From positions 1 through 64,000 of the forward strand of contig CAJNDS010002489.1 of the NCBI GenBank assembly GCA_905221605.1: DNA of 64,000 nucleotides, in the 5' to 3' direction. Positions within the stretch are counted from its first letter, which is position 1. Each line of letters opens with the position of its first letter. The notes under the pieces were generated by a model, which saw only the letters and a program-made list of their open reading frames with translations, had not been told where the DNA came from and made no database searches. The position numbers were made by a program, and so were the translations under genes. This DNA comes from Symbiodinium natans. Taxonomy: Eukaryota > Sar > Dinophyceae > Suessiales > Symbiodiniaceae. Of the stretch, positions 17,586-63,961 are shown piece after piece.

Positions 17586-20500
17586 TTACTCGGCCAGGGG
17601 CGTGTAGAGCAGTCCGAACGCGTCCTGGCAGTCCAGCCAGCTCTCGTGCGACATGGGCTTTTCAGACATCTGTGGGAGGTCGCCAAGTACACTGAGGCGA
17701 GATGAGTGAGAATACTTGATCGTCATCTTGCGCATGGCCAATGAGCTGACGTCACTTCCACGCCGAGTTGTCCCAGAGCGAGCCAACCTTAGTTGTCCAG
17801 CAACCTGGGGGAACTAAAGGTTAACCTTTGGGATTATAACGGGATTCTATTACCCCAAAAAGGTTAAAGGTTGCCCACTCTACTACTAGGCAACTCTTCT
17901 GTGACACTCTCGCCGTCACTTTCCTCAGGGACCACAATCTTCTCAGGAGGCCGTACAACCAGCATGGGCAGCCTCAGGTGCGGAACAGCTGCTTTTCGAC
18001 CATTGAAGCAATCCTTGGTAGCCCAGTAACCATACTATATAGTAAGGGCACCTTTTTTTGGGTTGGTTACTTTGAAAAGGAACCTTGAACCCAAAAAAGT
18101 GAAAAAGGGTACCACTGGGCTACCAAGAATCCCAAAGCTCAAAGCTCTCAGATACATTCTCTGTCGCTATGTGTGGGACATCGACTTTGCAGCTTTTGAT
18201 GGGCTCTTGGCCCCCGCGAGCGCGTATGCAATGCCTCTGCACCGCCTGTGTCTCTCTCTCCTTGATCTTCCGCCAGCGATATTTTCTGGTGGTTTCCAAA
18301 GCTTGCCTGTTCGCAAGGGCCAGCTGCTCTTCCGTGAAGCTCTGTATCCACAGCCTGTGCTCCGCATGGTTCTTTAGGACGTCAAGCCAATCTTTCCTTG
18401 TGAGCTTCTGCACTGTGCAAGCAGTCTGGGCTTCGATGGTGGCAAAGCGCTTCACAGGGGCCGACTGCAAGATCGAGGGTACTCCTAACGTGCAGCCTCC
18501 GGAAAGATCTTTCAGCTTCCGCCCATCAACGTAGAGGGTCACGACGGAGGCTGAGCTAATGATGATCATGCTGTCTGCAGGATCTCCTTGACGGATGATG
18601 GTCTCTCCGACAAAGAACACCTGAGCATTGCATTTCGTGCGCAGGGTATTGAGGAAAGACTTGGAGAAGTCCTTGAAGAAGGGGTGCTCTTCCAAGGGCT
18701 CGGGAGCGAGCTCCTTGAAGCGCCTCTCAGCGATTTCGCGGAAACATTGCCGGGCATCAGGATGCTCTTCCAGCAGTGTCAGGATGGCTGAGATCGGGAT
18801 CTCGATGAGCTTGCCTTGCTGGCCCAGTAGCCATAAGATACTAAGGGCACCCTTCTGTTTTTTTTTTGGGGGTTGGTTACTTTGTAAGGGGGCCCAGAAC
18901 CCCAACAAAAAGGGCAAAGGGTACCACTGGGCCAGCAAGTTGCAGAAGCTGAGAGCTTTGATGGTGGCCAGGCGGCGCTGCATTCCAGCGAAGCCGTAGG
19001 CCCCACTGATGCCACCCACCAGGTAGCCTTACTTCTCCAAGGGGGAAAAGAAGGTTAGACTTTATTTTCCTACAAAAAATAAGGAAACCAACAAGTTTAA
19101 AGTCCAACTGTTGGGTAAGCAAGTCGCTGTCCCTCACCTCCCCCGTCCGATCGGGGCATCCCCTCAGTGCCGGCTTCGTCTGGCGATGCACTTTGGCAGA
19201 CCCGGTTTCGATGATGAGTGCGTGATCCACGTGATCCCCTTCCTCTACAATGGCCTCACCAGGGAGGCAAAACCTCACCTGCATGAAGGGTGCCACGGCT
19301 TCAATGAAGGCATCAGAGCAACCTGCAAACGGCTCATGCCGCCTGAGGACATTCAGGGAACTCCACCAGCTTAGGCCATGTCTTTTCTCCAAGCGCTCTT
19401 GGAACAGCACCACTCGCATCAAGAACGCCCGTGCGTTCTCAGGGTTGGCGGTCAGCAAAGACTTGCTCTGCTCGAAGTTCACGCAGTAAACTTCACTGAG
19501 CTCCTCTGCCACCGTTTCGACATAGCCCGATCGGTCAAAGCCGCATATGATCCTATACTCCCCTTAGAACCTCAAGAAAATTATATTTTTCAATATCCTC
19601 TTGGGTTTTACAAAACAACAACGAAAAATAATTCCCAAGGGGGATATAGGATCAGGGGGGCTTCCAGGGCCTCATCCACGGCCCTCAACCGGCCACGTGT
19701 CAGCACGACAAGGAAATCTGCATTTGGGCCGTCCAAGTTCCGAAAGAGATGCTGGCCCGGGATCAACTTGAAGCATTCCATATGCGTGATGAGCTCTTGC
19801 AGGAAGCTCTCTCCCAGATCGTCACAGAAGGGGCAATACCAGAACAAGCCCCCCCCGCGACCTCCGTTGGCTGCGTCCCTCAAAGGCCGCTGGAAAGCTG
19901 CTTGCCGGCTTCCGTAGCCGCCGTGCTTTCGAGAGTTCATGCGGTGTGCCTCAGCAACCATCACTGCTGTCTCATGCGGATGCCGGCTGAGGAGGCCAAG
20001 CAGCTTTGGTTGCGAGATGCGGAGAATCTGGCAAACTTCCTTGGCCTTGACTCGCCGTGGAGGCTCTGCGGCTGTGCGATCTCCAAGCCAGTTTACACTA
20101 CTTAAAACCTCTGGAGCCTGCACCTTATGCCGCTTTTCATTTTGGCCGTGCCCATCCATGAATAGCACCAATCCAGTTGTGGGATCCTCTGCCGAGATGA
20201 TATCGCTGCCGTGAAAGCACAGCGCAGACTCCGCGGTCTGCGCAAGATCCGACAGAAACTGCTTGGAACACTTGGAGAAGATCTCCAGGCTGTGAAGCCT
20301 GTGGATGCCACATCTTTGCCACTCACAGTACTCCGCATTTGCCAGGAGATCGAAACGCTTCTTCTCACGCGGGGCACGCGCGACCGCTTCTCTGAAGTCC
20401 TCCACTCTCAGGGATAGGATGATGCAGTCGGTCAGTGCCACGACTTGCCTGTAAAGTGCCCTTTCCTTAGCTGTCCAGTACCTAGGGGAACTAAAGGTTA

Positions 20501-21802
20501 ACCTTTGGGAGTATAAGGGGTTACCCCAAAAAGGTTAAAGGTTACCTACTCCACTACGAAGTTTCACTTTCTGTATATCCAAGGACAGCCGGCTCATTGA
20601 ACAACAAGCAGTAGGGACCGGCCTTTGCCTGAACGGTGCCTGATTCCGGTTCGAGATTTGCGAGGGTATCCGGTAAGTCATACATCTCCTCCTTCTCGTT
20701 CCCCTCGCTATCACTACCAGAGCTTGAGGAGCTCGAACTTGAAAGATCGGAGTTCTCCTCTTCATCAGACAACGTGCTGCTGCACTCGTCAGACTCTTCG
20801 AGTGTAGGATAGTCGAAGCCGGACATGGACTGTGTTGCAGCAAAGTCTTTCAGCTGTTGCAATGTTCTGGGTGACATCAAGTCCGGGCCGCTCAGCCGCC
20901 TCTGACTCTGCGCGCGCTTCTCCTCTTCGAGCTCATCGGAGAACTCCGTGCTGCCAATGGACACGTGCATCGTTTTTCTCCGCCTTCGTAGTCCAGTAAC
21001 CATGTTGTCATAAGGGTGTCCTTCTTGGGGTTCTTTATATGGGGAACCTTGAACCCAAAAAAGTGAAAAAGGTTACCGCTGGGCTACCAAGCCGCTGAAA
21101 AACCGATTCGGTATCGGTTCGAACTATTGGGCTTCCAGGCAGCGCATTGTGCGCGCGGAAGGCTTCCTTGCTCACACTTTCCACCAGAACACTTCCCACA
21201 AGCACTGCTTTGAGATACTGCCTGGAGGTTGAGGGGGACCATATCAAGCTGTGGGCCCTGGAATGCCGTATGGACACTTTCTTCAGAAGCTGCTTGGGGA
21301 AGTTCTGCCCACAATGAGAAAGCAGCAGCAACTTAGAGGCTCGTGGCCACAGGATGCGCCTCTCCTGCTGGTCGACGAACTCATCCATTAAGGGCCCAGC
21401 AGAGGCATGGATCTTGATTGTCTGCCGCAGATCTGCGGAGGGTAGGCACCATGCGATGACTGGGACTTGCAAGACTCGGATGGTGAAGGGCTGCCGGTCG
21501 CATCTGCTGAAGGCCACGGAGTCACCAAACACGCTACCGTTCTCCAAAGTGCACAATGTCTGGCCGCTCTCGACAACCTCCACAGATCCGCGTGTCAAGA
21601 TCCAGAGGTTGGAAAGGTCCGTTGCGAGCGAACCCTCATTCAAGATTACACGGCCTGCAGTCGTAAACACCAGCCGCTTGGATGCACGCGAGATACCCAA
21701 AATCACCTCCTTGCGCAAGCCTCGACAAAGAGGGTGGGCAGACAGGACCTCGAAGCTGTCTGTGTCAATCTCAGCAAACGCAGGCTCCTGGAGATCTTCC
21801 AT
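17586..21802 (-). CDS. multi-domain cyclic-nucleotide-binding-like protein, 8 exons, 1149 aa
   Basis: Reconstructed exons on the minus strand: 21802-21096, 20983-20566, 20465-19654, 19552-19128, 19027-18944, 18814-18132, 18013-17895, 17787-17586. The sum is 3450 bp, exactly in frame from ATG (21802, first Met after an upstream stop) to TAA (17586-17588). About six tandem cNBD-like beta-roll domains are visible, near residues 17-130, 150-400 (split by an acidic Ser-rich insert around 298-340), 425-560, 595-720, 735-850 and 860-985. Domain 5 shows PGEAIVEEGDHVD and, only after splicing, GGISGAYGF..QRRLATIKA, which resembles a phosphate-binding cassette. Domain 6 shows GETIIRQGDPADS. The Glu normally found in the cassette (FGE-A) is not conserved in either, so true cAMP/cGMP binding is doubtful. 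No kinase, channel or transmembrane segment is seen, so it is probably a scaffold, regulatory subunit or sensor. All seven introns are introners. Confidence 0.85.
17788..17894 (-). mobile_element. introner, cNBD gene intron 7 (GT-AG, TSD GTTG)
   Basis: The intron (107 bp) reads GTTG CCTAGTAG...CAACTAAG, followed by the second GTTG in the next exon. The core AACTAAAGGTTAACCTTTGG and its counterpart CCCCAAAAAGGTTAAAGGTT form the hairpin. It is near-identical in core to intron 2 of the same gene. Splicing joins GAA-GA to GTTGGC in frame (TEELARSG). Confidence 0.85.
18014..18131 (-). mobile_element. introner, cNBD gene intron 6 (GA-AG, TSD GATT)
   Basis: The 118-bp intron has perfect terminal repeats CTTGGTAGCCCAGT/ACTGGGCTACCAAG between two GATT copies. 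Excision joins FELW to DCFNGRK in frame. It belongs to the same family as introns 1 and 5 and aquaporin intron 3. Confidence 0.88.
18815..18943 (-). mobile_element. introner, cNBD gene intron 5 (GC-AG, TSD GCAA)
   Basis: The 129-bp intron has termini CTTGCTGGCCCAGT/ACTGGGCCAGCAAG between GCAA copies. The element itself has no in-frame stop, but excision restores KALSFC-KLIEIPIS at the end of domain 5, as expected of a cNBD helix. Confidence 0.85.
19028..19127 (-). mobile_element. introner, cNBD gene intron 4 (GC-AG, TSD GCGAC/GCTAC)
   Basis: This 100-bp intron lies between an imperfect duplication (GCGAC left, GCTAC right). The termini TTGCTTAC.../...GTAAG and the AT-rich core resemble aquaporin intron 4. 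Excision gives VRDS-YLVGGISGAYG, rebuilding the domain 5 cassette. Confidence 0.8.
19553..19653 (-). mobile_element. introner, cNBD gene intron 3 (GA-AG, TSD GATC)
   Basis: The 101-bp intron has termini CTATATCCCCCTTGG and CTAAGGGGAGTATAG between GATC copies. Excision joins EAPL to IICGFDRSG in frame. A related copy lies between genes at about 50241-50375 (shared CTTGGGTTTTA..AAAACAA core). Confidence 0.85.
20466..20565 (-). mobile_element. introner, cNBD gene intron 2 (GA-AG, TSD GAAA)
   Basis: The 100-bp intron starts GAAA-CTTCGTAGTGG and ends CAGCTAAG, followed by the second GAAA. Excision joins YTES to ERALYRQVV in frame. Its core is nearly identical to that of intron 7. Confidence 0.87.
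20984..21095 (-). mobile_element. introner, cNBD gene intron 1 (GC-AG, TSD GCGG)
   Basis: The 112-bp intron has termini CTTGGTAGCCCAG.../...CTGGACTACGAAG between GCGG copies. Excision joins SVFQ to RRKTMHV in frame. Confidence 0.88.
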
Positions 21803-21880
21803 GGAGGACAGGGGTCGTATTAACCATCCAGCTCCCCTTCCGGCGGTCTCTCCTCAAATCCCTGCTTTGGCAACTGCGGC

Positions 21881-21971
21881 TTAGGGTTTAGGGTTTAGGG
21901 TTTAGGGTTTAGGGTTTAGGGTTTAGGGTTTAGGGTTTCGGGTTTCGGGTTTCGGGTTTAGGGTTTAGGGC
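21881..21971. repeat. TTTAGGG array just upstream of the cNBD gene
   Basis: About 13 tandem 7-mers, including three TTTCGGG variants, start 78 bp upstream of the cNBD start codon, within the probable promoter or 5' UTR. Confidence 0.9.
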
Positions 21972-22129
21972 CTAGGGTTTGCAATGCTCGGGCGGGATCT
22001 GCTCCACATAAACGAGCTGCCTGGGGTTCTGCTTCGGACGCATTCGGAATGCATGCACAGCTACTGAGCCCGACCATGTAGAGATTCGGGGTTTTGGGCG
22101 CCCTCTGTGGAGAGTCATGGGGCAGCTAT

Positions 22130-22218
22130 TTGGGATACTAACAGCTCCTTGATAGGGATTATGATAGGGGTACTATAATCCCTGTTAAGGACTGTTAGTA
22201 GAAGGGGGAACATCCCAA
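22130..22218. mobile_element. MITE family A
   Basis: TTGGGATACTAACAGCTCCTT faces AAGGACTGTTAGTAGAAGGG and GGGAACATCCCAA. The left end has lost the GTTCCCCC segment. Confidence 0.8.
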
Positions 22219-22225
22219 GGTAGTT

Positions 22226-22649
22226 CTATGTAATTGCACGAATGCTTTGCGTCAGGTTCATCTTGACTTTTTTACACTGGACCCCTTGCAAAGGAATTTT
22301 GTGAACCCCGGAACCTCCAAGTAGAGTTGAAGAGCTTTGGGGTCGGCAACCTTCGTGCTGCAATGAAGAAAGCAGCGGCCTGAACAAAAATGCGCATCCC
22401 GAGCTAAGCTGCGTTGGCAGTCGATCAAAAGGACCGAGAATAAGAACATCATAAGAGTTATTCTGAAGTGCCTCTGTCCATTTCAGCCTGTTCAATGGAA
22501 GAGGCCTTGAGAAAATTGGGACTGGAACGTCGCAAGCATGGCTGCAATTCATCAGCCAGGTACACCTTGCCAAACCGAAACATGGTACGGTATAGATGCT
22601 CTGGACTCTGGGCCAACATGGGAGAGCAGAACCGCCTGAACACTTCCAA
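22226..22649 (-). CDS. possible hypothetical coding remnant
   Basis: Two overlapping minus frames give plausible peptides (MFRFGKVYLADELQPCLRR at 22649-22458 and NNSYDVLILGPFDRL nearby at 22573-22226). Neither is recognised, and a frameshift or intron would be needed to join them. It could be a decayed gene or chance. Confidence 0.2.
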
Positions 22650-22700
22650 ACAGTGCCCCCAGCCCCTGAACGTTCTAGGATTCTAGGCCCTTGGGCGCCG

Positions 22701-22838
22701 CCCTAAACCCTAAATACCCTAAATACCCTAAATACCCCAAATACCCTAAATACCCTAAATACCCTAAATACCCTAAATACCCTAAATGCCCTAAATGCCC
22801 TAAATGCCCTAAATACCCTAAATACCCTAAACCCTGAC
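22701..22838. repeat. CCCTAAATA (9-mer) satellite
   Basis: More than ten tandem 9-mers CCCTAAATA or CCCTAAATG. The long ORF reading FRVFRVFRAF across it is an artefact of the repeat. Confidence 0.9.
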
Positions 22839-23265
22839 CCTTCCAGGCCCCTTGGGCGCCACAGTGCAGATTGAGGCACGCCGTCGGAGCACATGATGAT
22901 CAGATGCTCTTGTTCGTCCTCGCGCAAGTTTAGGGTTTAGGGTTTAGGGGTTAGGGCTTAGGGTTTAGGGTTTAGGGCTCAGGAGAATTATTTCAGGCAT
23001 GGCGAGAAATTCTGAACGAGCCTGAGGCCTTTCTTACTCTAGACCACAGCCGCATAATGCTACTGCAGTCTCATGTCACAAAGCCAAGTGAGCCAAGAGC
23101 CACATAAACCCTTTCGCGTAAGCCCTAGACCCTAAACCCTAAGCCCTTTTGCAACTGGACTGCGGACAACTGCCAGGAAATTATACTACCCCCACTCAGC
23201 CTCGGCGTTTTGGGAAACCCTATCCCCAGACGGACAAAGCACCTAGGGTTCCTCCCGCAGGTCTT

Positions 23266-23303
23266 GAGTTTAGGGTTTAGGGTTTAGGGTTTAGGGTTTA
23301 GGG
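23266..23303. repeat. TTTAGGG array
   Basis: Five tandem TTTAGGG units lie directly against the left end of a family B MITE. Confidence 0.9.
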
Positions 23304-23420
23304 CTACTTGGAGGTTCATGGGTACTTGTGGGAAGGGTTATGAGTAGGGGTACCTAGAGTTAGAACCGTATTCAGGGTACTTTTAACCCTGCTTACAAGT
23401 ACCCATGCATCTTCAAGTAC
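23304..23420. mobile_element. MITE family B (CTACTTGGAGGTTCATGGGTA)
   Basis: The left end CTACTTGGAGGTTCATGGGT faces ACAAGTACCCATGCATCTTC. The interior holds the GGGTTATGAGTAGG and complementary AACCCTGCTTACA arms. Confidence 0.8.
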
Positions 23421-23469
23421 ATCAAGGCTCATTCCAATCCCTCGCAACGATTTCGCGTAGTGGATCTAT

Positions 23470-23570
23470 GGGATTCCCAAAATCTGGGTACCCGCTTTAT
23501 ACACCCAAATAGAATCGAGTCCCCCTCAAAGGGACACCCAAGACGGGTACCCCCCAATTCGGAAACCCCC
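23470..23570. mobile_element. MITE family C
   Basis: GGGATTCCCAAAATCTGGGTAC faces GGGTACCCCCCAATTCGG, with an internal TTTATACACCCAAATAGAAT core shared with 51300, 52001 and 35281. Confidence 0.7.
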
Positions 23571-23648
23571 ATATCCGGGCTTGGGGTAAAGACGTGGGAT
23601 CTTTAGAACGCACCACCTGTCAGAGTAGGGAGCGATGAACTTCTGAAC

Positions 23649-23750
23649 TTGGGATGTTCCCTCACTAGCAGCTTCTCAAGAGGGATTATAGTCCCCCCCC
23701 CTATTAGAATCACTATGAAGGAGCTGCTGGTATTAGGGGGAACATCCCAA
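23649..23750. mobile_element. MITE family A
   Basis: The termini TTGGGATGTTCCC and GGGGGAACATCCCAA are well preserved and the internal arms are diverged. Confidence 0.85.
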
Positions 23751-24270
23751 TTCTAAACTCTGAACTCCCCGGAGGCGCCTGCAGCAAGCAGTCGTCAACA
23801 AACTCAGGCTCTGATGACATTCCGTACCTCGGCCGAGAGGAACTGGTCTTGGTCTCAGGTTTGCAACGGGGAGCACACAACATGGGTGACTCTTCTGCGT
23901 CACTGTTGGGGCGTGCCACTTTGCGACTACTTGTGGCTATGCTTATACATGTCTTGGTGCTGGCGAGTTCTCCTGAGCTACATGGGTGTTCGCGCGTTGT
24001 GGCATTCAGAGATGTGTAAACTCCGCTTTTCAACGCCTGTTTTGCATGGCCTCTAGTAGACAGTTTTGGGACTTCACACAGTGACACGGGGCCGTTTCCA
24101 TCCTTTTCTCTTGTCTCTGCTGACAAAGTCCGGTGAACAAACGCCGAATAACATGTTAGTGGTTGCACTTGTGGCCGACCAATGAATAGTAGTACAATTA
24201 TTATCGGAGGCGTGGCGTGCAAACTTCTGGTGCTTGGACACATCAAGGATCCAAAATGGAATCGGCTCAC
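23751..24270 (-). CDS. doubtful hypothetical ORF
   Basis: The minus frame 24270-23713 is open for 185 codons, but its last 12 lie in the family A MITE. The middle is Ser/Thr/Lys-rich with no recognised domain. It sits just 3' of the better-supported frame at 24295-25014. Confidence 0.2.
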
Positions 24271-24294
24271 TCGATTCCTTCAAGCCAACAAGTC

Positions 24295-25014
24295 TCAGTA
24301 CTGGCATCTTCCACAATAGCCACAGTCTTTGTCGCATGCGGTGAAATCACGCTGCTCGCCCCGAAATGCAAAGACCATGTCGCCTTGCCCTGTCATGTAA
24401 TATCCATCCTCAGGTGTGAACATGTCCTCTGAAGAATCTTCTCGGCCGTGCAGGGACTCCTCTGAGTCATGTTCATCTGAGGTACCATCCCACCCAAACA
24501 CGTCAGCACCATCGTCAAAGGGATCATCGTAGCCTGAAATCCCATCAGCAAGCGTCAGCTCAAAGACATCCGGGAATGCGCGCACCAAGCTCGCTTGCAT
24601 GTCGTACCGAGCCGTCGTCATCTCCAAGTCGGGACCAGGCTGGCATCGGGCATGTATATCTGAGAAACGATCTTTTCCAGGCACTTGGAGAGGATCCCAG
24701 AAGAGCTTCCAACATGGGCCTCTCTCTCCATGCCATGAGTGCCGGTCACATGAGTAGGAAAATGTCGCAAAAATGTTGGATTCTGCAGCATCTGACTCTG
24801 AAGATGCCCACACAACGCTCTCGTACTGATCGGGATTTTGTTGGACCTTCATCTTGATCTCACGCAGCATCGAATGATACTTTTCGAGGTCAAGCGATGC
24901 AACAGAATCACTTTTGATGTAGAAAGCCCAATGTCCGCCCATGACGCTTGGTAGGGCTTGTTGCCACCTGCTGAATGCTTTGAGGGCAAAACCTGTGGCC
25001 TGCGGATCAAGCAA
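24295..25014 (-). CDS. hypothetical acidic protein, probably terminal exon
   Basis: This 239-codon frame has protein-like composition. It starts with an aromatic/basic segment (ALKAFSRWQQALPSVMGGHW, KYHSMLREIKMKVQQNPD), then a Trp-rich segment (WKLFWDPLQVPGKDRF), a strongly acidic stretch (GYDDPFDDGADVFGWDG, DEHDSEESLHGREDSSED) and a Cys cluster at the C-terminus (CDKDCGYCGRC). The first codons overlap a conventional-looking acceptor (CTTGATCCGCAG before GCCACAGG, near 25000), so the true exon probably begins there and the gene continues upstream. No family recognised. The CxxxCxxCxxC tail could bind metal. Confidence 0.45.
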   Translation of the reverse strand: MLDPQATGFALKAFSRWQQALPSVMGGHWAFYIKSDSVASLDLEKYHSMLREIKMKVQQNPDQYESVVWASSESDAAESNIFATFSYSCDRHSWHGERGPCWKLFWDPLQVPGKDRFSDIHARCQPGPDLEMTTARYDMQASLVRAFPDVFELTLADGISGYDDPFDDGADVFGWDGTSDEHDSEESLHGREDSSEDMFTPEDGYYMTGQGDMVFAFRGEQRDFTACDKDCGYCGRCQY

Positions 25015-25888
25015 GAAGAAAGTATGGAATGAAACACAAACACTTCTTCACTGCAGACTTCTCCCATGACGTTAGACTGCATCTGGCATGCTTCAGCCCA
25101 TCAGCATCTTGGCTTGCTAACTTTATGATCTGCCCCCATCCTGTGTTTGTAGCCCAAGAGGTGTGCGTGAAAGCTCAAGCTCTCAGTCAACTCCCGCAAG
25201 CAAACTACAATGTACTGTCAGACTATGACCGTCTACATGCATCTATCGGGAATGAAAGGCGGCTTTCTTGCCTCACTGCATTGGCAGGAATCAAAGAATG
25301 AAGCTAGAAACATTGCCTCTTTGCAGCTAGTTTCAGGGTTTATGGTTTAGGACCACCCCCAACCATCCAAAATCTGAGCATGGTACATGTGAGCATCTAT
25401 GTCGCCGAAGGCCCGCGACATCGCCACGTCGCCGGAGGGTACTCTCCTGGACGAAGTTAAGTGTAGGGATTTAGGTTGCGTCAGCAACCTCTTCGGGGCG
25501 ATAAAGCCCACCAGAAGGGCTTTTGTGGAGTGGCATGGAGGTCGGAACCAAACCCGAGACCTTGCTCTAGGCTCGACAGCGACGCTTTCAACTCGGATGA
25601 GGCTGCGACAGGCGGGAAGGTGAACCGTCTTCGCCTGGAATTACCTGCAAGATTGGAAAGATTCCTGTGCTCCAAGGCCCGAAATGCCCCAAGACTACTG
25701 CTTGCAACCCATCCTGAAACCCCTCAATTCTGAACACCCACGGTGATAAGACAGCTGTGCTGGGCTTTTCAGGCGGATGTTATACTGGCTTCTTTCATGA
25801 GACCTTTTTTCGCATGCACTGCTACAACTCTCCCCGTCCTCAACGCAAAGCCCTGCCGCTACGACAACACGGACGAACAAAGCTATGG

Positions 25889-25980
25889 TTTGGGATGTTC
25901 CGCCTTTTACTAGCAGCCCTTAATCGGGATTATAGTACCCCCAAGACAAGTCCTTGTTAAGGACGAGGAAAATGTCCAAT
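25889..25980. mobile_element. MITE family A, degenerate
   Basis: The left end TTGGGATGTTCC and GGGATTATAGTACCCCCA are clear. The right end is decayed to GGAAAATGTCCAA. Confidence 0.65.
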
Positions 25981-26087
25981 CGATGGTCACGTAACATGCC
26001 CGCATGAAGTTGACGCCGCAACGCAAGATCAGCCCCACAGCTCCTGAAGACTAATCTGAACCGCCAATCTACTGACCCAGTATTTGC

Positions 26088-26195
26088 CTAAGAACCCCCC
26101 CCCCAAAAAAAAATATAATAATAATAATAAAGATGACAATCCTCCAAAGAATACTCTTTTGGGGGTTCTGAGGCAAATAGTAGCGACAGGTTCTG
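26088..26195. mobile_element. MITE family E
   Basis: The termini TATTTGCCTAAGAACCCCCC and GGGGGTTCTGAGGCAAATA are inverted repeats. The A-rich left interior contains (AAT)n. A second copy is at 37204. Confidence 0.8.
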
Positions 26196-26305
26196 CGGAT
26201 GCAGGAGAAGGAAACCTCGAGGACAAGCGGTTTCCCGAGACCCCAGCTTTGAGAAGCTGAGGAATTGTCCGCCCTTTCCCAAGTCTCCAGTTCCACCCTA
26301 ATACC

Positions 26306-26428
26306 CTACTTGGAGGTTCATGGGTACTTATAATTATAAGTGGGGTTATAAGTAGGGCAACTATACAAAGGACCTTACTTCGGGCACTTATATCCCGACT
26401 TATAACTACCCTTGAACCTCCAAATAAG
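26306..26428. mobile_element. MITE family B
   Basis: CTACTTGGAGGTTCATGGGT faces CCCTTGAACCTCCAAATAAG. The internal GGGTTATAAGTAGGG and CCGACTTATAACTACC arms are well preserved. Confidence 0.85.
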
Positions 26429-27098: not shown

Positions 27099-27180
27099 GG
27101 GGTAACTATACATATAACTGGCTTTAACCATATTTAGGGTACTTGCAACCATACTTATAACTGCGCATGAACCTTCACGC
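27099..27180. mobile_element. MITE family B, partial
   Basis: Only the right portion remains (ACCATACTTATAACTGCGCA, TGAACCTTCACG). The left terminus is lost. Confidence 0.5.
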
Positions 27181-27279
27181 ATGAGAGTCTCATGAGGTCG
27201 AGTGCCTGGACTCAGCTTGACAAGGGCTGCCAGCTCCGAGGCTCTCATGTTCAAGGTAGCTTGAACAACTCTAGGGACT

Positions 27280-30873: not shown

Positions 30874-30887
30874 TAGGGTTTGGGTCC

Positions 30888-33667: not shown

Positions 33668-33880
33668 GCCCTAAACCCTAAACCCTAAACCTTAAACCCT
33701 TAACCCTAAAGCCTAACCTGAAGCCCTGACCAAAAGAACCGGAAGCATCCGAACCCTAAAATTAACCCTAAACCCTAAACCCTAAACCCTAAACCCTAAA
33801 CCCTAAACCCTAAACCCTAAACCCTAAACCCTGAACCCTGAACCCTGAACCCTAAACCCTAATCCTAAACCCTGAGCCCT
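33668..33880. repeat. CCCTAAA array
   Basis: Long block of 7-mers CCCTAAA with some CCCTGAA variants, interrupted at 33720-33755. Confidence 0.9.
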
Positions 33881-33976
33881 AAACTAGACCTCGCGCAAAA
33901 CGGTGTCGCAGGCAGATGCTGCCGCTGACATCAACCCTGCATCCGACCTGTACTTCCACATCGTCTCTGTATACCC

Positions 33977-49539: not shown

Positions 49540-49593
<54 letters not shown>
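49540..49593. repeat. poly(A) tract
   Basis: About 52 consecutive A between CAAAAAACC-type sequence, inside the TIR element. Confidence 0.9.
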
Positions 49594-49595
<2 letters not shown>

Positions 49596-49603
49596 AAAAA
49601 AAA

Positions 49604-49932
49604 CAATCCTGAGAGACTCTTCCCAGGGGTCCGGCTCCCCAACATCCCTCAGGATTGTTTTTTTTTGGTTTTCTTGCACAAAAATCCTCCAAAAACCAAA
49701 AAAACCAAGAAAACCAAAAAAACCCAAAAAAACCCAAAAAACCAATCCTGCGAGACTCTTCCCAGGGGTCCGGCTCCCCAACAGAGTCCCTCAGGATTGG
49801 TTTTTTTGTTTTTTTTGGTTTTTTTTGTTTTCTTACACAAGAACCCCCAAAAAACCAAAAAAAACAAACAAGAAACAATCCTGAGAGACTCTTCCCAGGG
49901 GTCCGGCTCCCCAACAGAGTCCCTCAGGATTG
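49604..49932. repeat. three hairpin repeats CAATCCTG...CAGGATTG
   Basis: Copies at 49604-49657, 49743-49799 and 49876-49932 (start spacing 139 and 133 bp) each begin CAATCCTGMGAGACTCTTCC, carry CAGGGGTCCGGCTCCCC and end CCCTCAGGATTG, so each folds on itself. The separating DNA is A-rich to the left and T-rich to the right of each, extending the stems. Confidence 0.85.
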
Positions 49933-50240
49933 TTTTCTTGTTTTCTTGGTTCTTTTATTTTTGGTTTTTGTGGGGATTTGTTGTGTGTGTTTTTTGTTTT
50001 TTTCACGCTTTTCGTGTGTTTTTAGGTTGTTTTTAGGATTTGCATGTTTTTTTTTACGGAAAAAGTGCACTCCCACAGCGTCCCATTTTCTAGAGTTTAG
50101 GGTTTAGGGTTTAGGGTTTAGGGGAAGAAGAGGTCTACAGCTCACACTCGGCACCTGTCTGCCTAGGGCTTATGAGCCCCGGCGTCTTAGAGTAGAGTCC
50201 TTTTTGTGAGCCTAAACCCAAAAAAGCATTCAACATCTGA

Positions 50241-55316: not shown

Positions 55317-55428
55317 GATTTCTTCTGTGGCTGAGGAAGGAGGAGCGCACTGATACGCCTTCATGTTTCATGGATCTGGTTGTCTCAGTTATGGACCCGC
55401 TCGTGTGCCGAACTTATCTCCTCATGGC

Positions 55429-55754
55429 TTATCTTAGACGGGGCAGCTGCAGGGTATACCACCTGCCACACCCCGTTGCCGAAATATCCTTTGCGAAAGC
55501 TGTTGACGCTACATGCCTAGATGCCTTCTGCTTGGCAAGGCGCCGTGCGGCATGCCATAGATCCGTCGGATGAGCTGGCGATGGTTTGCAGCCATGAACA
55601 TGTAGATGAGAGCGGTCACATAGAAAGAGGCCTGCTGGCGGGAACCAGGCCGGGTACAAAGTCTTACGCCCATAAACTTGAAACATCCTCTCCATGGCAT
55701 CCCGAATACAAGCTCTGGTCTCACGGTGAGTCTATGGATGTCTAGGGCACACAA
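55429..55754 (-). CDS. possible hypothetical coding remnant
   Basis: Minus frame 55754-55509 includes ASFYVTALIYMFMAANHRQL followed by IRRIYGMPHG, a possible membrane segment with basic flank. An overlapping frame (55695-55429) is also open. Unrecognised. Confidence 0.2.
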
Positions 55755-56772
55755 CTAACCCAAGAATCTTTTATGGTGACAACATCAAAACATTTCCTAA
55801 GTCTGCGCTTTAAGGAACTCTACGAAGGTGAATTAGGACATCATGCCGGCAGCCTTTAAACACAGGCTCGTTGCGTATGAAGCCGTAGAGGAACCAAGGG
55901 TTCAGGGCCTATAGGGCTTGTTGCAGCAAAGTTCTGGACCTGAGCCCACAACAAATTCGATCATACCGCACTGCCACACATCGGCAAACAGTTCGGGACA
56001 CCATGCCAGGCTCTCAAACTATTCAGGTTTCCCCCAAAAACCTTCAATAAGTGTTAGGAAAGCCGGAGACTGCGCAAACCAAGCTGCAGCGGTGAGGGCA
56101 TTCAGGAATGTCACGAGGAACACGCCTGCACGGTGCAAATCGTCGCAAGCCCTGTTGAAGCTGGAAGTTGGCTTTAGCTTGGGAAGGCAAAGGGGTCAGG
56201 ATTCGCGGGGGTACGTATCAAGTGGTTGAAGGTGACTGCCGTTCTCGAGGCAAAGTGAGAGGCTTGAACCACAAGCTCAAATCCAATTCGATCCTGGGCT
56301 TCTGAGCTGCTTGTCCTTGGGTTCTTATCTACCAGATCTTGCGGCAAGGCGACCCCAAACCCTAAACTCTTCTTGTCTGTGAGCTTTCATGCCACTGATC
56401 AACCGCTGACTCGGAACCCAACGTTTCGCGCTTCGAGGGCACCCCAGAAAGCCGAGATCCAAAGCTCAGGGTTGAGTTGCTTCTTGCTTTTGGTGGCGTA
56501 GGGTTTAGGGTTTAGGGCTTAGGGTTTAGGGGTGAGGGTTTAGGGCAAACCTTTTGAGGAATTAATGCCTGGCAATTCATGCATGGCAGCTCTCGGGGGT
56601 TTAGAGCTTTTGGTTCAGGGTTGTAGTGTTGAGTGTTTAGGGTTTCGAGTTGCTGATTCTTTGCTGGAGACCTGAACCCTAAAATGCCTGTCCAGAAGGG
56701 CAAGAAGTTAATCTTCGCCGAGCTCGCAGTGTCTGCCCAACGCACCGGCGAGCACCTGCACTATAGGCTCTA

Positions 56773-56795
56773 GTTGGGATGTTCCCCCATATGCT
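56773..56795. mobile_element. MITE family A, left-end fragment
   Basis: TTGGGATGTTCCCCCATATG only. Confidence 0.5.
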
Positions 56796-57009
56796 TCAGG
56801 GAGCACACCACCTAAGCCTCCTGAAAGATAAACCCTCAAGACACATGTTCTGAAGTCAAAGGTTTAGGGTTTAGGGTTTAGGATCTAGGGTTAGGGTTTA
56901 GGGTTTAAGGCTCCCGAGAACATGCAAGCAACCCCACGAGGTCCCTCACCCTAAGCCCCAAAACCTGACCCTTGAGGTATCGAGGTCCCTCTCCAATCCG
57001 AAGCCCGCT

Positions 57010-57135
57010 GAAACCCTAAACCCTAAACCCTATAAACCCTAAACCCCCTAAACCCTGTAATCCTATAAACCCTAAACCCTAAACCCTAAACCCTAAACCC
57101 TAAACCCTAAACCCAAAACCCAAAACCCAAAACCC
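57010..57135. repeat. CCCTAAA array grading to CCCAAAA
   Basis: Fourteen or so 7-mers, ending in four ACCCAAA units. Confidence 0.9.
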
Positions 57136-57327
57136 AAGGCACAGGCAGGAGAAGAAGGGGATGCGCATGTCCCGCATGATCCTTAGCTTTAGAGGTTTTA
57201 GGGTTTAGGGTTTACTCGGCGCTATCTGGGAGTCTGAGCAACTGAGAGGGTTTAGGGTTGAGGGTTTAGATTGAGGCGCTATGGTGCGAGTTTAGCTGCT
57301 TTTGGCGCGTGGTTTAAGAAGGGTTGT

Positions 57328-57422
57328 TTGGGATGTTCCCCCTGAAACTAACAGGGATTATAGTATAATCCCCTATGACAGTCCCTATTCAGGACTTGTT
57401 AGTACAAGGGCGGACATCCCAA
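57328..57422. mobile_element. MITE family A
   Basis: TTGGGATGTTCCCCCTGAAA and AAGGGCGGACATCCCAA. The centre is rearranged. Confidence 0.8.
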
Positions 57423-57430
57423 AGGGTTGT

Positions 57431-57544
57431 GCTTGAAGGTTCATGGGCGGTTCATGGGTAGTTAAGTAGGGTTGTTAGTACCCTAGAAAAGCAGTTGCAA
57501 CTGGAGTTGCCCCACCTGTAACCCCACTTATAACCTCTAAGTAG
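57431..57544. mobile_element. MITE family B
   Basis: GCTTGAAGGTTCATGGGCGG, then a second GGTTCATGGGTAGTTAAG, and ACCCCACTTATAACCTCTAAG. The left end is partly duplicated and the right terminal ACCCATGA is missing. Confidence 0.75.
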
Positions 57545-58117
57545 AAGAGGTTGGGGTTTTGAGCATTGTACTGAAAAGGGTGCCCCTATCTTCGGAAGCC
57601 CCCTCATTTGGAGCGCCTTTCGTAACACCTGGAAGGCCGTGCGCCCATGGAAACCGGTCCATTCGTTCCAGGGTGCCCTGTGCTCAGCTTGTCTAGGGGA
57701 TCCGACGTATGGGCCCTTAATTTCGGTCTTTTGTTATGTAACTCGTCTGTACACTACTAAGGATCAAACCTTAGATTCTCAACAGGAATTGTAGGGTTTA
57801 GGGCCCGTTTAGGGTTTGGGGGGTTTAGGGTTTAGGGTTGAACCTGCTGTGGCTTGGGACCTGGGTGCTTGACAGAGTTCTCCTTCGATGGCGCATCTTT
57901 ATCGAAGTTGCACATCCTCAGACAGGGATGCTCGGATGCTCAAACAGCCAAACAGAAAGTTCCAAGACCCACGTAAATCAGCACATGAAAGGAGCGGAAG
58001 GCATAGTCTCAGCCTGCAGGGGAAGGAAAATCAGAAAGCACAACCCCTGTGCTTCTACGTGATCAGGCCCATCATCAACACTAAACCCTATACCCCTTCC
58101 CCCTCTGTCGACTGTAC

Positions 58118-58180
58118 CCTAAACCCTAAACCCTAAACCCCTAAACCCTAAACCCCTAAACCCTAAACCCCTAAACCCTA
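58118..58180. repeat. CCCTAAA / CCCCTAAA alternating array
   Basis: 7-mers and 8-mers alternate (CCCTAAA, CCCCTAAA), giving a 15-bp higher-order period. Confidence 0.85.
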
Positions 58181-58538
58181 CTGCCCCTTCTACTTAGGGC
58201 ATCCGCAGCGTCACAGCAAAATCAAGCAAGGCACTCCCACAAGCTGAAAGTGAAGCCCTCCCGGGTGACCGCCGGCTTGTTCTTCAGCACAGGGTAGGGA
58301 TAGTGGCACCAGGTCCTCAGACTGGCTAAGGGCTTTAGGGAGTTCTAAACCGAACTAGGGAGGGACTTTTCGGGTACTGCCGGGTCAAGGGGAGAACATG
58401 GTTTAGGGTGTAGGGTTTAGGGTTCAGGGCCCAAGGGTGAAAAGCAAGCTCCACTACGTTAGCTTCCGCAATTATGCTATATACACATTTACATGTTATG
58501 TATGTACTTGTGCACATACATAATCGGCATGACTGATA

Positions 58539-58643
58539 TGGGGGTTTACGATATCAGGGCTACGTTATTGGGGTCAATTGATAAGGTGCTACTATTTGGG
58601 GGTCTACAGTAAAAAGAGGGTCCCCTGTCATCGTAAACCCCCC
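58539..58643. mobile_element. MITE family C-like, perfect ends
   Basis: GGGGGTTTACGATATCAGGG faces CATCGTAAACCCCCC. The interior GGGTCAATTGATAAGGTGCT is unique. Confidence 0.75.
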
Positions 58644-58733
58644 ATGTGAATGAAGGCCTTTCTTGCTCAAATTCTCAGAGCCTCGAAGACCTTCGAAGCC
58701 ACTGCTGCTTTCGGGCCTGTCTTGTGTTTGCTC

Positions 58734-58833
58734 TTGGGGTGTTCCCCATCTTCTAACAGTCCTTCGTAGGGATGATAATAGGGGGTACTATAATCCCTAT
58801 TAAGGACTGTTAGTTTAAGGGGGAATGTCCCAA
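58734..58833. mobile_element. MITE family A, well preserved
   Basis: TTGGGGTGTTCCCCATCTTC and TTTAAGGGGGAATGTCCCAA, with the arms AACAGTCCTTCGTAGGGATG and AATCCCTATTAAGGACTGTT. Confidence 0.9.
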
Positions 58834-59110
58834 GTTTGCTCTTTCGATGGCTGAACCTTTGCCTGGCCCGAGGGTCACATAAAGGTATGCCGCAAGCATC
58901 ACCAGGACAAAGTAGACCTGCGCCGTGAAGCTAGCTATGGATGAGGGCGGAGGCTTCCGGCTTCAGTCTTCAGCCTTCGCATTATTCTAACATCGGGTAG
59001 TTGAGATTCAGCACCCTTGGGAGGTTCACGGTGCCTTGCAGCTGGCTGAGTACATGCCCCTTCCTGCCCGAAACCCGGAAGCAAACGGCTGGATGGTACT
59101 AGAATCGTCA

Positions 59111-59220
59111 CTATACTTGAGGGTTCATGGGTAGCTATAGGTAGGATTGTTCGTGCCCTAAAAATGTTTTGACCGGCTCCAGATATAGTTGCCTTACTTA
59201 CAACCCCACTCATAACTACC
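59111..59220. mobile_element. MITE family B
   Basis: CTATACTTGAGGGTTCATGG and AACCCCACTCATAACTACCC. The right terminus is replaced by a CCCTAAA patch. Confidence 0.75.
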
Positions 59221-59488
59221 CTAAACCCTAAACCCTACACCCTAAACCCTAAGCCCTGAACCCCCAAACGGGATATGAGCCCTTTGAGTGCTGGAAGCGT
59301 GCCGCTCCGCCCAGAAGCTGGTCTTTCAAGGCGTCGAGGCCTGGGGAGCACAGGGTTCAGAGGTTTAGGGTTTAGGGTTTAGGGTTTAGGGTGGCCCTTA
59401 AATTATTAAACCCTCCGAAAACCATTCCGAAATTAGCGGCTTCAGAGGTTTAGGGTTTAGGGTTTTTCGGACCTACGGGTTTCTTGGG

Positions 59489-59583
59489 ATGGCCCTGAAA
59501 AAGCCTCTGAGAAATATTCCTGAATATGAACCTCTTACACCCAAGAAGGGGAAAATATGAAATGTCCCAAGGGCCTGCCTAGG
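59489..59583. mobile_element. intergenic copy of aquaporin introner 1
   Basis: ATGGCCCTGAAAAAGCCTCT, GAGAAATATTCCTGAATATG, CACCCAAGAAGGGGAAAATA and GAAATGTCCCAAGGGCCTG follow the intron at 63701-63804 almost base for base. It is not in a recognised gene. Confidence 0.8.
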
Positions 59584-59873
59584 AGATGTTTCACGCTCGC
59601 ACAAGGCAGGCAAGGCTTTAGGCTTTAGGGTTCAGGGTTCAGGGGTTCAGGGTTCCAGGGTTTCAGGGTGTGGGCTTACCTACAGTCGACGGCGCACGCT
59701 CACAGTGAACACAGCTTCTTGCCTCAAGTCTTGCGACCTATCGTATAAAGAGATCTGGTGGAACGCAGTGGAGGTAGTGTAGCACTACCATGTTGCAGGG
59801 GTGAAGCAGTCAGAAACAGTTGACCAAAGCGTCTTTCACCATTGCCCACAGGAACCCCCAGCTGCACAGCCTA

Positions 59874-59982
59874 CCCAGAGAGCCCAATACCCCTTAATTA
59901 AAGAATATACCTTAAATTATAAAGGGACCCTTATTGTGATTTAAGGAATATTCCTTAATTAAGGGGTATTGGGCTCTTTGGG
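59874..59982. mobile_element. near-perfect hairpin element (AGAGCCCAATACCCCTTAATT)
   Basis: CCCAGAGAGCCCAATACCCC and TTAATTAAAGAATA face TATTCCTTAATTAA and GGGGTATTGGGCTCTTTGGG. The stem is about 35 bp around an AT-rich centre. It is the best-preserved single-copy palindrome of the window. Confidence 0.85.
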
Positions 59983-60715
59983 TATGTGCCAGAGACTCAA
60001 ATTGACCTACTGGGAGGTTCAAGGGTAATTTGCACCTGGACCACTGGATAGAAGTCGGGTAACTCTTGGGACGGCTAGGTTACATAGCCTAGAATGGCTG
60101 GAACCGCTGGACGACCCACTGTCCCCGCAGATTTTCGGCCTGGGCTTACGGTTCAGGGTTTAGTGTTGTTGAGGCTTCTGCGCTTCTGGGGAATGTCAAT
60201 TATTGGATGAAATGGCGCCATCTTATTGCAAATAAAAGTAAGAACGGAAGGACTCGATCCACGAACGCACGCACTGGCTCTTCGGAAGACGTCCAACTTG
60301 CTAGCATCGACTTTTTTCTCTGTGGGCACTTGAGTCCCGCGAACCTTTGGCACCCCACCCGCCCTTGGCACCCCACCCGCCCTAAACCTTTGTTTCTCCT
60401 AAACCTTAAGCCAAAAACTCTTAACCTTAACTAACCTTTCGGGGCAAGAAAGATTCTGGTAGAGCCCCCGAAGACTATGAGTGAACTAGAGTCGGGGCAC
60501 TGAATTCTGCCACACTCTTCCCAGCGATGCCCAGCAGAGAGTAAGAAGACTTGGCAACTCCTGCATGGCTGACATGGCAGAGGGAGTCTTGCCCATGCCC
60601 CGGGTACGACTGCAAAAATTCGTCTTGCGGGTTTAGGGTTTAGGGTTTAGGGTATGTGGATCCGACTCCACGCCAAGATGCAGCCTGCAGCCAGCCAAAC
60701 AGCTTGAAGCAACTC

Positions 60716-60805
60716 AGGTATAGACTTACTAATAGTACTCCCTTATGGTCCCTAAATATAAATATACAATAATAACCCCCAAAACCTATTCTAATTGTTA
60801 CTCTC
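60716..60805 (-). mobile_element. MITE family D, reverse orientation
   Basis: TACTAATAGTACTCCCTTAT, GGTCCCTAAATATAAATATA and CCCCAAAACCTATTCTAATT are the complement of the elements at 36863 and 37511. Confidence 0.75.
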
Positions 60806-60955
60806 AACCCTACAAACCCCAAGACACCTGAACGCAGACTTCACGGTGCCTGCGAGGTCGGCAGCGATCTTGGCCCGGTGTAAGGATGCCTGCTGATCCT
60901 GGAGCTCTGCCTGGGCAGGGCAGGTCTCTACTCCCCGTAGAGTAATCATAAGCCT

Positions 60956-61780
60956 TGACATTTAGGGTTTAGGGTTTAGGGTTTAGGGCTTAGGGTTTCA
61001 AATCTTTCCGTGGGCTTTACATAAGCAGACAAAAACCAAACATGATTCTTCAAGGATGCGCGGAAGCTGGGATGTAGGGTTGCAGCTAAACCCTAAACAC
61101 CCAAGCATCCGAAGCCTGCCTGATGCAACTACCGGCACCTCATCTACAGGTCCCATGCCTCCCATGCCCGGTATATTCCCACCCTATCCTTCTAAACCCT
61201 AAACCCTAAACCCTAAACCCTCAACCCTAAACCCCTAAACCCCATACCTACTTCATTCCTAGCAGTTTCCCCTTTTGGGGTTCCTGTGGAGGTTCCCTTG
61301 CCATCCGATCCTGCGCCCTCAGCTTGCCAGCTTTCTCCGCCAGCAGCTCTTTGGACTGGCGCTGGACCAGCCTTGCCCGTTAGAGCGAGGGTTTAAGAAG
61401 GTTTAGGGTTAGGGTTTAGGGTTTAAGGTTTAGGGCTTTAGACACTTCGTGCCATGTGGGGAGGGCCGGCGGCCAGCTGAGCTAAATTATGGTGCTGTCT
61501 TTTCGGTACCCTATACCCCAAACCCGAAACTCCCCCAAAAAAGGCCGAGCTGTTGATCCAAGCTTCTTCTCCAAGGCGGCCTCCTGAGAGCGATCTGGGG
61601 GTTTGTGTTTAGGGGTTTGGGGCTTGGGGTTTTTGGGCTTAGGGGTTTGGGGCTTAGGGCTGCTGATCATATGGCTTGGCTCGGACATGCGACAGGAACC
61701 TTGCTCCCTTTTCTTTCGCCATCTCTCCAGCAGCATCCTTGATAAACTCAGCAGGCGCCAGTTCTCAGAGGAGCCATGCA
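60956..61780. other. 3' flank of the aquaporin gene; no further gene supported
   Basis: TTTAGGG/CCCTAAA patches (60960-61000, 61190-61245, 61385-61440) and a GGGGTTTGGGGCTTGGGG-like stretch (61610-61660) separate the aquaporin stop from unique filler. Confidence 0.6.
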
Positions 61781-63961
61781 TCACGCAGCAGCTTCCACGT
61801 CCATGGCCTCCTTCTGATGCGTGTCCTTCTCCAATCCCTTCGCACCATCATCCTTGTCCTCGCCATCCTCTTACTTCCCAAACACCCACAGGGTGAAAAG
61901 ATCAAAATTTCAGAATAAGGCTACCTTATAAGAGGCCAAAAGTTGAAAAGTTGGGTTTGAGCCACCAAGTCCTTGGCCACTTCAATGAACTCGCCGCGGT
62001 GCGTCATCCGGAAGAGGCATGCGGCCAGCAGGCCGCCGAAAAGCTCTGAAAAGAGCAGGGCGACCCAACTTCCCACGGGACCCATACCTTGGTAGTCCCG
62101 TAACCATATTCTAAGAAGGGTTTAGCTAGGGTTTAGGGTTTAGGGTTTAGGGTTTAGCGTTTAGGGTTTAGGGTTTAGGGTGTAGGGTTTAGGGTTTAGG
62201 GTACCCTTTCTTGGGGTTGGAGCTACTTTATGAGGAAACCTGGAACCCAAAAAAGGGGTAACACAAGTGTACCAATGGGCCACCAAGATGCCCCCCTTGC
62301 CCGGGTTCACCACGTTCCCGATCATGAGGCCGAGGACCACCGAGGGATTCAGCTCACCTCCCGAGACGGAGCCCACGGCAAAGCTCCCGCCGGTGACCTA
62401 AAGTGACCCAAGGGTTCACCTAGGAACAAAGAAAGGGTACCCCTTTTTGGTTTAAAGGGGCCTCTAAGAGAACCCAAGCCCTAGAAAAAGGGGAATAAGG
62501 GCCTACTCTGGGTCCTGGTGACCGTGGAGGCGATGATGAGTCCAAAGAGGTCTTTGGCATGGGGCTCCCGTACGGTGGCGATGCAGAGGACGACATAGCC
62601 CAGAATCATCGTGACGATCATTTCCGCGATGGAGGCCTGCACCAAGTCGAAGCCACTTCCCGGGACGAGCTTGATCGACTTGTCCGCAACGGCGGAGCCC
62701 ATGTGGTAAGCGGCATAAACCAATCCTGCAAGCAGTCCCCCGGCAATCTGAGCCAGGATGTAGCCTGCAGCATCATGTCGCGAGATCTTCTCACGGCCGC
62801 CAGCGAGAACTGCTAGGGTGACCGCTGGGTTGAGATGGGCACCGGAGACATTTCCCAGGGAGTAGATCATGCACATGAGGGCAGCAGCGGCGGAGTAGGC
62901 CGTGGCACGAGATCCGCTGACGATGTTCAGGCCGACCGTGACAACCAGCATAAAGGTCCCAAATGCTTCAGCCAAACAGCGTGTCTTGAGGTCTGGCTGG
63001 TCGCCAGCGGACTTCCCAAACTCTTCTGGCCGCAGTAGACGGTAAGCTCCAGCAGCCACGGCAGCACCGGCGAGCTCGGCACCAAACCAGACCAAGGCCC
63101 AGTGTGGGTCCTTACCACTGCCCAGGCCCAAAGTGACCGAGACCGCCGGATTGAGAGCAGCCCCCGAGATGCGCCCCACAGCATGGCCTCCCGCCAAGAC
63201 CACGAAGCCGATGGCCAGGCCATAGAACTGGTTCGGCGTGTTCCTCTTTGCCACGGCGCAGCAGAGCACAACGAACACAAGCATGGCGGTGTAGAGCAGC
63301 TCACCCCCGGCGGCGTAGCCTGCGTTGAAGGGAGGCACAGGGGCCACCACTGCCAGGTGCGGTGCGCAGACGATCTTGTAGACGGCCGCGGCGAGAAAGG
63401 CCCCCATGAACTGGAAGAGCCAGTACTTCATCATGCCTCCAAAGGACTTCTTCCCCAACAGGGCCATGGCGAACGTCACCGCCGGGTTGAGATGCCCACC
63501 CGAGATCGGCCCCGTGGCATAGATCATGACCATCAGTACCGAGGCGATGGATGTTGCGCCCCATGGCGACGGAGTCGGTGAGGTGACCACGCATCCGACA
63601 GTGAACACCAGGGCAAAGGTGCCAAGAGCTTCTGCAAAGAGAGGTGCCAACCCTCTGAGGAAAGCATTCAAGATGATCTTCATGTACTCGTCGGCGTTGC
63701 CTCGGATGGCCCTTAAAACCCTCTGAAAAATATTCCTCAACATGATCCTCTTTAACCCAATAAGGGAAAAAATTAAAATGTCCCGAGAGGGCCTACCGAG
63801 TTGCGCATCACCTCATTAAGGACCTCCTCGGGAGAGAGGCGAGGAGCGTCGCTGCGGCTCCCTTCACGGCCCTGAGCCGATGTCGAGCCATAGGCAGCAT
63901 CCGCCTGGCCTTCCAACAACACGCGATCCGGAGCTTCAACGGACTCTGCAGAGGCAGCCAT
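61781..63961 (-). CDS. tandem (double) aquaporin-like MIP channel, 5 exons, 547 aa
   Basis: Reconstructed exons on the minus strand: 63961-63805, 63700-62523, 62397-62292, 62087-61972, 61867-61781. The sum is 1644 bp, in frame from ATG to TGA. After a ~55-residue polar N-terminus come two consecutive major-intrinsic-protein domains, about 12 membrane segments in all. There are four half-helix boxes: SGGHLNPAVTF (NPA near 124), SGAALNPAVSV (236), SGAHLNPAVTL (343) and SGGELNPSVVL (NPS near 462; visible only after intron 2 is removed). The tail is charged (GEDKDDGAKGLEKDTHQKEA). The position after the second box of each domain, usually the selectivity-filter Arg (NPAR), is Val in both, so the pore is unlikely to be a strict water aquaporin. 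Glycerol, other small solutes or an unknown substrate are possible. No in-frame stop upstream of the ATG lies within the window, so the N-terminus could extend further. Confidence 0.87.
61868..61971 (-). mobile_element. introner, aquaporin intron 4 (GA-AG)
   Basis: The 104-bp intron begins GACTTGGTGGCTCAAACCC and ends GGGAAGTAAGAG. The flanking duplication is weak (GACT against GATG). The AT-rich interior with an internal AAGGTAGCCTTATT palindrome resembles cNBD intron 4. Excision gives VAK-DGEDKDD in frame to a TGA. Without it the frame stops after LFNFWPLIR. Confidence 0.7.
62088..62291 (-). mobile_element. introner, aquaporin intron 3 (GC-AG) enlarged by TTTAGGG repeats
   Basis: The element has CTTGGTGGCCCATTGG and GGGACTACCAAG termini, between GCAT and the diverged GTAT. 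The normal size for this family is ~112-129 bp; this one is 204 bp because a TTTAGGG array (62116-62202 on the plus strand) sits within it. Excision joins NPGKGG to MGPVGSWVALL. Confidence 0.83.
62116..62202. repeat. TTTAGGG array nested in an intron
   Basis: About eleven 7-mers, with TTTAGCG and TGTAGGG variants, lie inside the introner of aquaporin intron 3. Confidence 0.9.
62398..62522 (-). mobile_element. introner, aquaporin intron 2 (GT-AG, TSD GTCACC)
   Basis: The 125-bp intron lies between GTCACC copies. It starts GTCACCAGGACCCAGAGTAG and ends GGGTCACTTTAG. Excision joins LIIAST to VTGGSFAVGSVSGG, uniting the last helix with the fourth NPA-type box. Confidence 0.88.
63701..63804 (-). 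mobile_element. introner, aquaporin intron 1 (GC-AG, TSD GCAAC)
   Basis: The 104-bp intron has termini CTCGGTAGGCCC and GGGCCATCCGAG (12-bp near-perfect inverted repeats) between GCAA(C) copies. Excision joins LNEVM to RNADEYMKI in frame. Copies outside genes lie at 59489-59583 and 38665-38752. Confidence 0.9.

Follow-up and report, generated by a model that had tools for sequence, protein, structure and literature searches.

The introns of two genes in this stretch of the Symbiodinium natans genome start with GC or GA as well as GT, are bordered by short direct repeats and appear to follow a single splice-site rule. What produced these introns, and does the rule belong to an inserting element or to the exons that received it? 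The window, i.e. the whole stretch of 64,000 nt analysed here (contig CAJNDS010002489.1), holds the following two genes.

17586..21802, minus strand: cyclic-nucleotide-binding gene (cNBD), three cNMP_binding stretches, 8 exons, 1149 aa
61781..63961, minus strand: aquaporin gene, three MIP stretches, 5 exons, 547 aa

Ten other ORFs of the window gave no match in Pfam. Coding-like segments are also present at 2428-7205 on the minus strand, with a partial recurrence of about 1.06 kb (for instance 4710-4940 and 5766-5996), and the two long ORFs within this region were without a Pfam match.

When one target copy and the adjoining element are excised from each of the 11 introns, coding sequences of 3450 nt (cNBD) and 1644 nt (aquaporin) remain, with one stop each. 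A first-pass annotation had given these exon sums, the intron coordinates and a donor tally of GT 2, GC 5 and GA 4; all were re-derived here from the sequence. The introns are listed in the order of transcription (TSD, target-site duplication; TIR, terminal inverted repeat).

20984..21095, minus strand: cNBD intron 1, TSD GCGG and 108-bp element of family F1, CTTGGTAGCCCAG...CTACGAAG; donor GC, acceptor AG|GCGG
20466..20565, minus strand: cNBD intron 2, TSD GAAA and 96-bp element of family F2; donor GA
19553..19653, minus strand: cNBD intron 3, TSD GATC and 97-bp element, CTATATCCCC...GGAGTATAG; donor GA
19028..19127, minus strand: cNBD intron 4, diverged TSD GCGA/GCTA and 96-bp element; donor GC
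18815..18943, minus strand: cNBD intron 5, TSD GCAA and 125-bp F1-like element; donor GC
18014..18131, minus strand: cNBD intron 6, TSD GATT and 114-bp F1 element; donor GA
17788..17894, minus strand: cNBD intron 7, TSD GTTG and 103-bp F2 element; donor GT
63701..63804, minus strand: aquaporin intron 1, TSD GCAA and 100-bp element, CTCGGTAGG...CCATCCGAG; donor GC
62398..62522, minus strand: aquaporin intron 2, repeat GTCACC, TSD probably GTCA, 121-bp diverged element with weak TIR (6/24); donor GT
62088..62291, minus strand: aquaporin intron 3, diverged TSD GCAT/GTAT and 200-bp F1-like element with internal CCCTAAA array; donor GC
61870..61973, minus strand: aquaporin intron 4, perfect TSD AGGA and 100-bp element; splice register shifted by +2, i.e. 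intron 61868-61971; donor GA

Telomere-like CCCTAAA arrays, as inside aquaporin intron 3, recur in the window, for example at 8930-9147, 15294-15498 and 33669-33884.

All 11 elements start with CT or CC, end with AG and are flanked by a duplication of about 4 bp, which is exact in nine introns and carries one mismatch in two. At least 10 of the 24 terminal bases match as an inverted repeat in ten introns, the exception being aquaporin intron 2. The earlier reading of every intron as a target copy plus an inverted-repeat element thus stands for the duplications throughout and for clear inverted termini in 10 of 11. Two of the duplications had been taken as GCAAC and GTCACC. These repeats are present, but are better described as the 4-bp duplications GCAA and GTCA extended by some additional matches, since this lets the element begin with C and end with AG like the others. 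One might suppose that these are ordinary old introns with border repeats arisen by chance, and the weak termini of aquaporin intron 2 would suit this idea. However, exact direct repeats of at least 4 nt border 9 of the 11 introns, compared with 4.6% of mismatched pairs, in which the 5' and 3' ends were taken from different introns, and thousands of copies of family F1 exist genome-wide. We give chance practically no credence.

When the window was scanned strictly for elements of the form CT/CC..AG/GG flanked by an exact TSD, nine were returned, five of which are known introns; about one is expected by chance. Outside both genes, at 946-1104, there is a candidate element of the CT..AG type whose ATTT duplication is exact; it may itself be due to chance. 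Small elements of other kinds may be present as well. At 49552-49956 there are about three copies of a unit of 133–139 bp that contains long A runs and has the inverted termini AATCCTGAG...CTCAGGATT, possibly a small mobile element, and an inverted repeat read by eye at 22136-22200, TACTAACAG...CTGTTAGTA, may represent a different one.

The duplications make several splice registers equivalent at each intron, and in 11 out of 11 exactly one of these registers reads G[TCA]..AG and is followed by a G. In the coding sequences of the two genes, about 23% of 4-mers are permissive in this sense; therefore, 11 out of 11 would arise by chance with a probability of about 1e-7. In ten introns the 3' splice site lies in the element and the 5' splice site comes from the 4-bp TSD. 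Aquaporin intron 4 is different. Its duplication had been placed as a weak GACT/GATG, which is a misplacement: a perfect AGGA is found two bases upstream, the mRNA being unchanged, and hence the target contributes the acceptor AG as well as the donor GA. The claims that every target starts with G and that the right end of the element always provides the acceptor AG consequently hold for ten introns each and fail at this one, and the rule has to be worded as the existence of one G[TCA]..AG|G register.

The inverted termini suggest a further possibility, namely that a terminal hairpin brings the exons together and that excision proceeds partly outside normal splice-site recognition, as has been suggested for Amoebophrya. 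The predicted RNA fold pairs both termini in 8 of the 11 introns. Yet cNBD introns 2, 4 and 7 are without terminal pairs, z is below -2 in only 5 of 11, and each intron does possess one ordinary G[TCA]..AG register, all of which makes such a route very improbable. Ordinary splicing at the register described above is our preferred reading.

A GT within the element, 8 nt past the start of the TSD, is available in 7 of the 11 introns, and it had been argued that such a nearby donor breaks the frame in most introns. By hand count this is so in six of the seven. At aquaporin intron 4 the internal GT combined with an AGAG acceptor adds 6 nt in frame, so that frame by itself does not decide against it there. 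In the closest orthologs these junctions are free of additional residues, the nearest case being P0002, an ortholog with two more residues slightly downstream of aquaporin intron 4, and the internal GT was rejected as donor. For the aquaporin the nearest homologs come from Symbiodinium species at 84–90% identity, and for cNBD, with the C-terminal half as query, likewise from Symbiodinium species at 81–82%. Among the homolog sources are transcripts (P0007) and contigs barely longer than a transcript (P0122, P0123). In alignments with the three closest orthologs per gene the junction itself is free of gaps in 11 out of 11 introns; at cNBD intron 1 a gap lies two residues upstream of the junction, and more distant homologs show gaps near cNBD introns 1, 6 and 7 and aquaporin intron 4. 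Judged by frame and orthologs, the spliceosome would be expected to use the 11 predicted junctions.

Does the element itself ask for G? The target bases were surveyed genome-wide for family F1 alone, with exact matches to its left-end 16-mer CTTGGTAGCCCAGTGG as probe, in an assembly of 759 Mb in 2543 contigs. There are 2867 such copies; the exact left end of family F2 has only 4. The first target base is other than G in 1911 of the 2867 F1 copies, and G is followed by T, C or A in 865, which by difference leaves GG at 91 of the 956 G-first copies. That G-first targets form a strict and striking new grammar is therefore not upheld: by target it describes 10 of 11 window introns, and two thirds of the genomic F1 copies break it. 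Two sets of copies were examined individually. The first is unselected and consists of 97 copies read at the first 100 places of the listing, from which three on contig C47 were left out; the second comprises 52 copies at chosen places (40 GH-first and 10 non-G requested). In the first set, with right ends defined by the TIR alone, 3 or 4 of the 4 duplicated bases agree in 51 out of 73 copies, against 5.2 expected by shuffling.

Flanks were called coding-like at a codon score above 6, with a codon model trained on the two window genes only. From the 149 sampled copies the 102 with a clear duplication were kept and the 47 without one excluded from the main count, the right ends having partly been chosen by duplication. 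Among the copies kept, 36 of the 50 that are G-first have coding-like flanks, but only 7 of the 52 with a non-G target do (p=1.8e-9). The unselected copies with a clear duplication behave similarly (13 of 19 versus 7 of 46, p=5.5e-5), and when all 97 unselected copies are counted, G comes first in 14 of the 22 with coding-like flanks versus 13 of the remaining 75.

At the 36 coding-like G-first copies the donors are GA in 13, GT in 12 and GC in 11, where 23 of the 36 belong to the set picked without GG. These near-equal numbers suggest that any G[TCA] is acceptable to the splicing machinery. GG targets are absent from the 24 window introns and unselected coding-like copies taken together, compared with a share of 27% GG among GN in exons (p=4.5e-4); the second set, having been picked without GG, provides no test of this exclusion. 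Neither does the genome-wide share of GG add anything, as it resembles the frequency of G at the second base of non-G copies (10 of 100 listed).

Further support for coding flanks comes from domain searches. Of 20 ORFs submitted to Pfam, nine at G-type copies gave matches running across the joined junction. The Pfam cut-off was passed by RCC1, Ras, the small chain of ribonucleotide reductase, PPR (two) and ankyrin; EF-hand, LRR and SLOG fell short of it. Eight other G-type ORFs were either unmatched or had weak hits to unrelated families, and no match was returned for the three non-G ORFs. F1 copies thus occur at unrelated loci: besides the window genes, these include ORFs for RCC1, Ras, ribonucleotide reductase, PPR and ankyrin. 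A frame test with 75-nt flanks covered 11 G-first copies whose flanks are clear on both sides: joining at the target keeps only 8 of them in frame (p=0.009), use of the internal GT donor 3. Of the three copies that fail at the target join, L100 conflicts with its own RCC1 match. As for the seven coding-like non-G copies, L033 and L057 are G-first with an offset of 1 nt, L012 has a poor right end, and L085, L113, L114 and L127 meet stops within 50 codons read to either side. Exons here being short, these seven can be called noncoding only presumptively.

These counts bear on the idea that the transposase itself favours G-first targets, the grammar then being an insertion rule. G in 10 of the 11 window targets would be explained in this way, but the large non-G majority of F1 copies would not, nor would the 6 G-first cases among 45 unselected low-score copies with a clear duplication. 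Moreover, given inverted-repeat ends, one would look for the mirror position as well, a C as fourth base, which is filled in only 1 of the 11 window targets. A preference of the transposase is therefore extremely unlikely. Since targets of many kinds occur in the survey and G-first targets prevail in coding-like flanks, the element lands broadly, and G-first is what exons show. The G rule is probably a filter imposed by splicing on exon insertions and no preference of the element.

We consider the following explanation, from the anatomy to the exon filter, very probable as a whole. The introns would be introners, short non-autonomous MITE-like DNA transposons running from CT.. or CC.. to ..AG, presumably moved by a transposase and producing a 4-bp target duplication. 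On insertion into an exon, the right end of the element would provide the AG of the 3' splice site, and the upstream target copy would act as 5' splice site if it reads G and then T, C or A; alternatively, with AGG followed by T, C or A, the target would provide the AG too. The downstream target copy would rebuild the exon, which leaves the mRNA unchanged and places a G after the AG. The transposon itself would require no G. Exon insertions at other targets could not be spliced and would be purged by selection, while noncoding copies may keep any target. GC and GA donors, the G after AG and the duplicated intron borders would then share a single cause, namely a transposon sampling exons under a filter set by splicing.

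A pattern that this explanation does not by itself contain is the orientation of the copies. Adjacent listed F1 copies point in the same direction in 71 of 82 pairs, and adjacent non-G copies alone in 64 of 72. Of 44 non-G copies with a GH-first copy at most 200 kb away, 41 have the direction of the nearest one (contigs C1-C80, 99 of 100 listed GH places used). Beyond 300 kb the agreement between neighbours is only 2 of 6. The p-values of such neighbour tests presuppose independent copies, an assumption that copies of the same cluster violate. The element's own strand scores higher at 32 of the 36 coding-like G-first copies, and all four F1-type introns of the window are sense. Weaker than the neighbour test is one that takes the sense strand from coding segments within 3-kb loci, applied to 41 copies of which some gave no call: with a score difference above 15, 9 of 9 G-first and 12 of 18 non-G copies are sense (p=0.24), and at any difference 9 of 11 G-first copies. 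Dinoflagellate genes tend toward co-oriented blocks (PMC7789003; PMC4083563), and orientation shifts per 10 genes have been given as 0.15–0.93 on average for Amoebophrya and 2.32 for S. microadriaticum (PMC7789003). F1 copies are thus likely to lie sense to transcription even at targets unable to splice.

A single orientation is what one would expect if the introns had spread by reverse splicing into RNA followed by reverse transcription, a route proposed for the introners of Micromonas, which are reported in sense only (PMC3879977), and the non-G copies with their neighbours' direction would fit. Against this stand the 4-bp duplications and inverted termini, present even at targets without a G donor, which are marks of staggered DNA cuts; we regard reverse splicing as very improbable. 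Under DNA transposition, the preferred reading, the co-orientation of non-G copies with G-first neighbours over tens to hundreds of kb means that insertion may follow the direction of transcription or replication. It is conceivable, though we put it forward only tentatively and with some doubt, that the element inserts directionally, perhaps coupled to one of these directions within co-oriented gene clusters; if so, a DNA transposon with terminal inverted repeats would pick its strand at insertion. Directional insertion and later selection are inseparable on these data. A partial search turned up no report on the orientation of noncoding introner copies.

How do these introns compare with known systems? 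In Amoebophrya, introner elements likewise carry inverted repeats and direct border repeats of 3–5 nt, but the splice dinucleotides are described as highly variable (PMC7789003), in contrast to G[TCA]..AG|G at all 11 window introns. Micromonas introner elements are reported in sense orientation only (PMC3879977, PMC4815162), and F1 copies are co-oriented too. The former are confined to transcribed regions according to PMC3879977, with some intergenic copies in Table 2 of PMC4815162, whereas here copies without a G donor are co-oriented with their neighbours as well. Non-canonical splice sites of Symbiodiniaceae, with GT, GC or GA donors and AG followed by G, have been published (PMC4083563, PMC10666404); for S. 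natans, Table 2 of PMC10666404 gives donors of GT 23.6, GC 58 and GA 18.4%, and an AGG acceptor in 97.1%. The window introns have the same donors and the same AG|G, which we read as imprints of target duplication. For the dinoflagellate genomes of Roy et al. (2023, Curr Biol), a review (PMC11453091) reports recently active introner families in four of five, and that work may already contain the G rule. For Symbiodinium microadriaticum, introners with a 4-bp TSD and TIR, a 3' splice site in the element and a 5' splice site from the TSD have been described (Gozashti et al. 2022, PNAS, PMC9860276, legend of Fig. 2B), and GC and GA donors are reported there for introner families. Going by that legend, there is no anatomical difference from the window introns. 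The first-pass view of transposon-like introners with target-derived donors is supported here, and the mechanism was already known in the same genus. As far as we can see, what this study adds to that publication is the comparison of coding with noncoding targets in the genome survey, the AGGA duplication of aquaporin intron 4 and the way in which copies are oriented.
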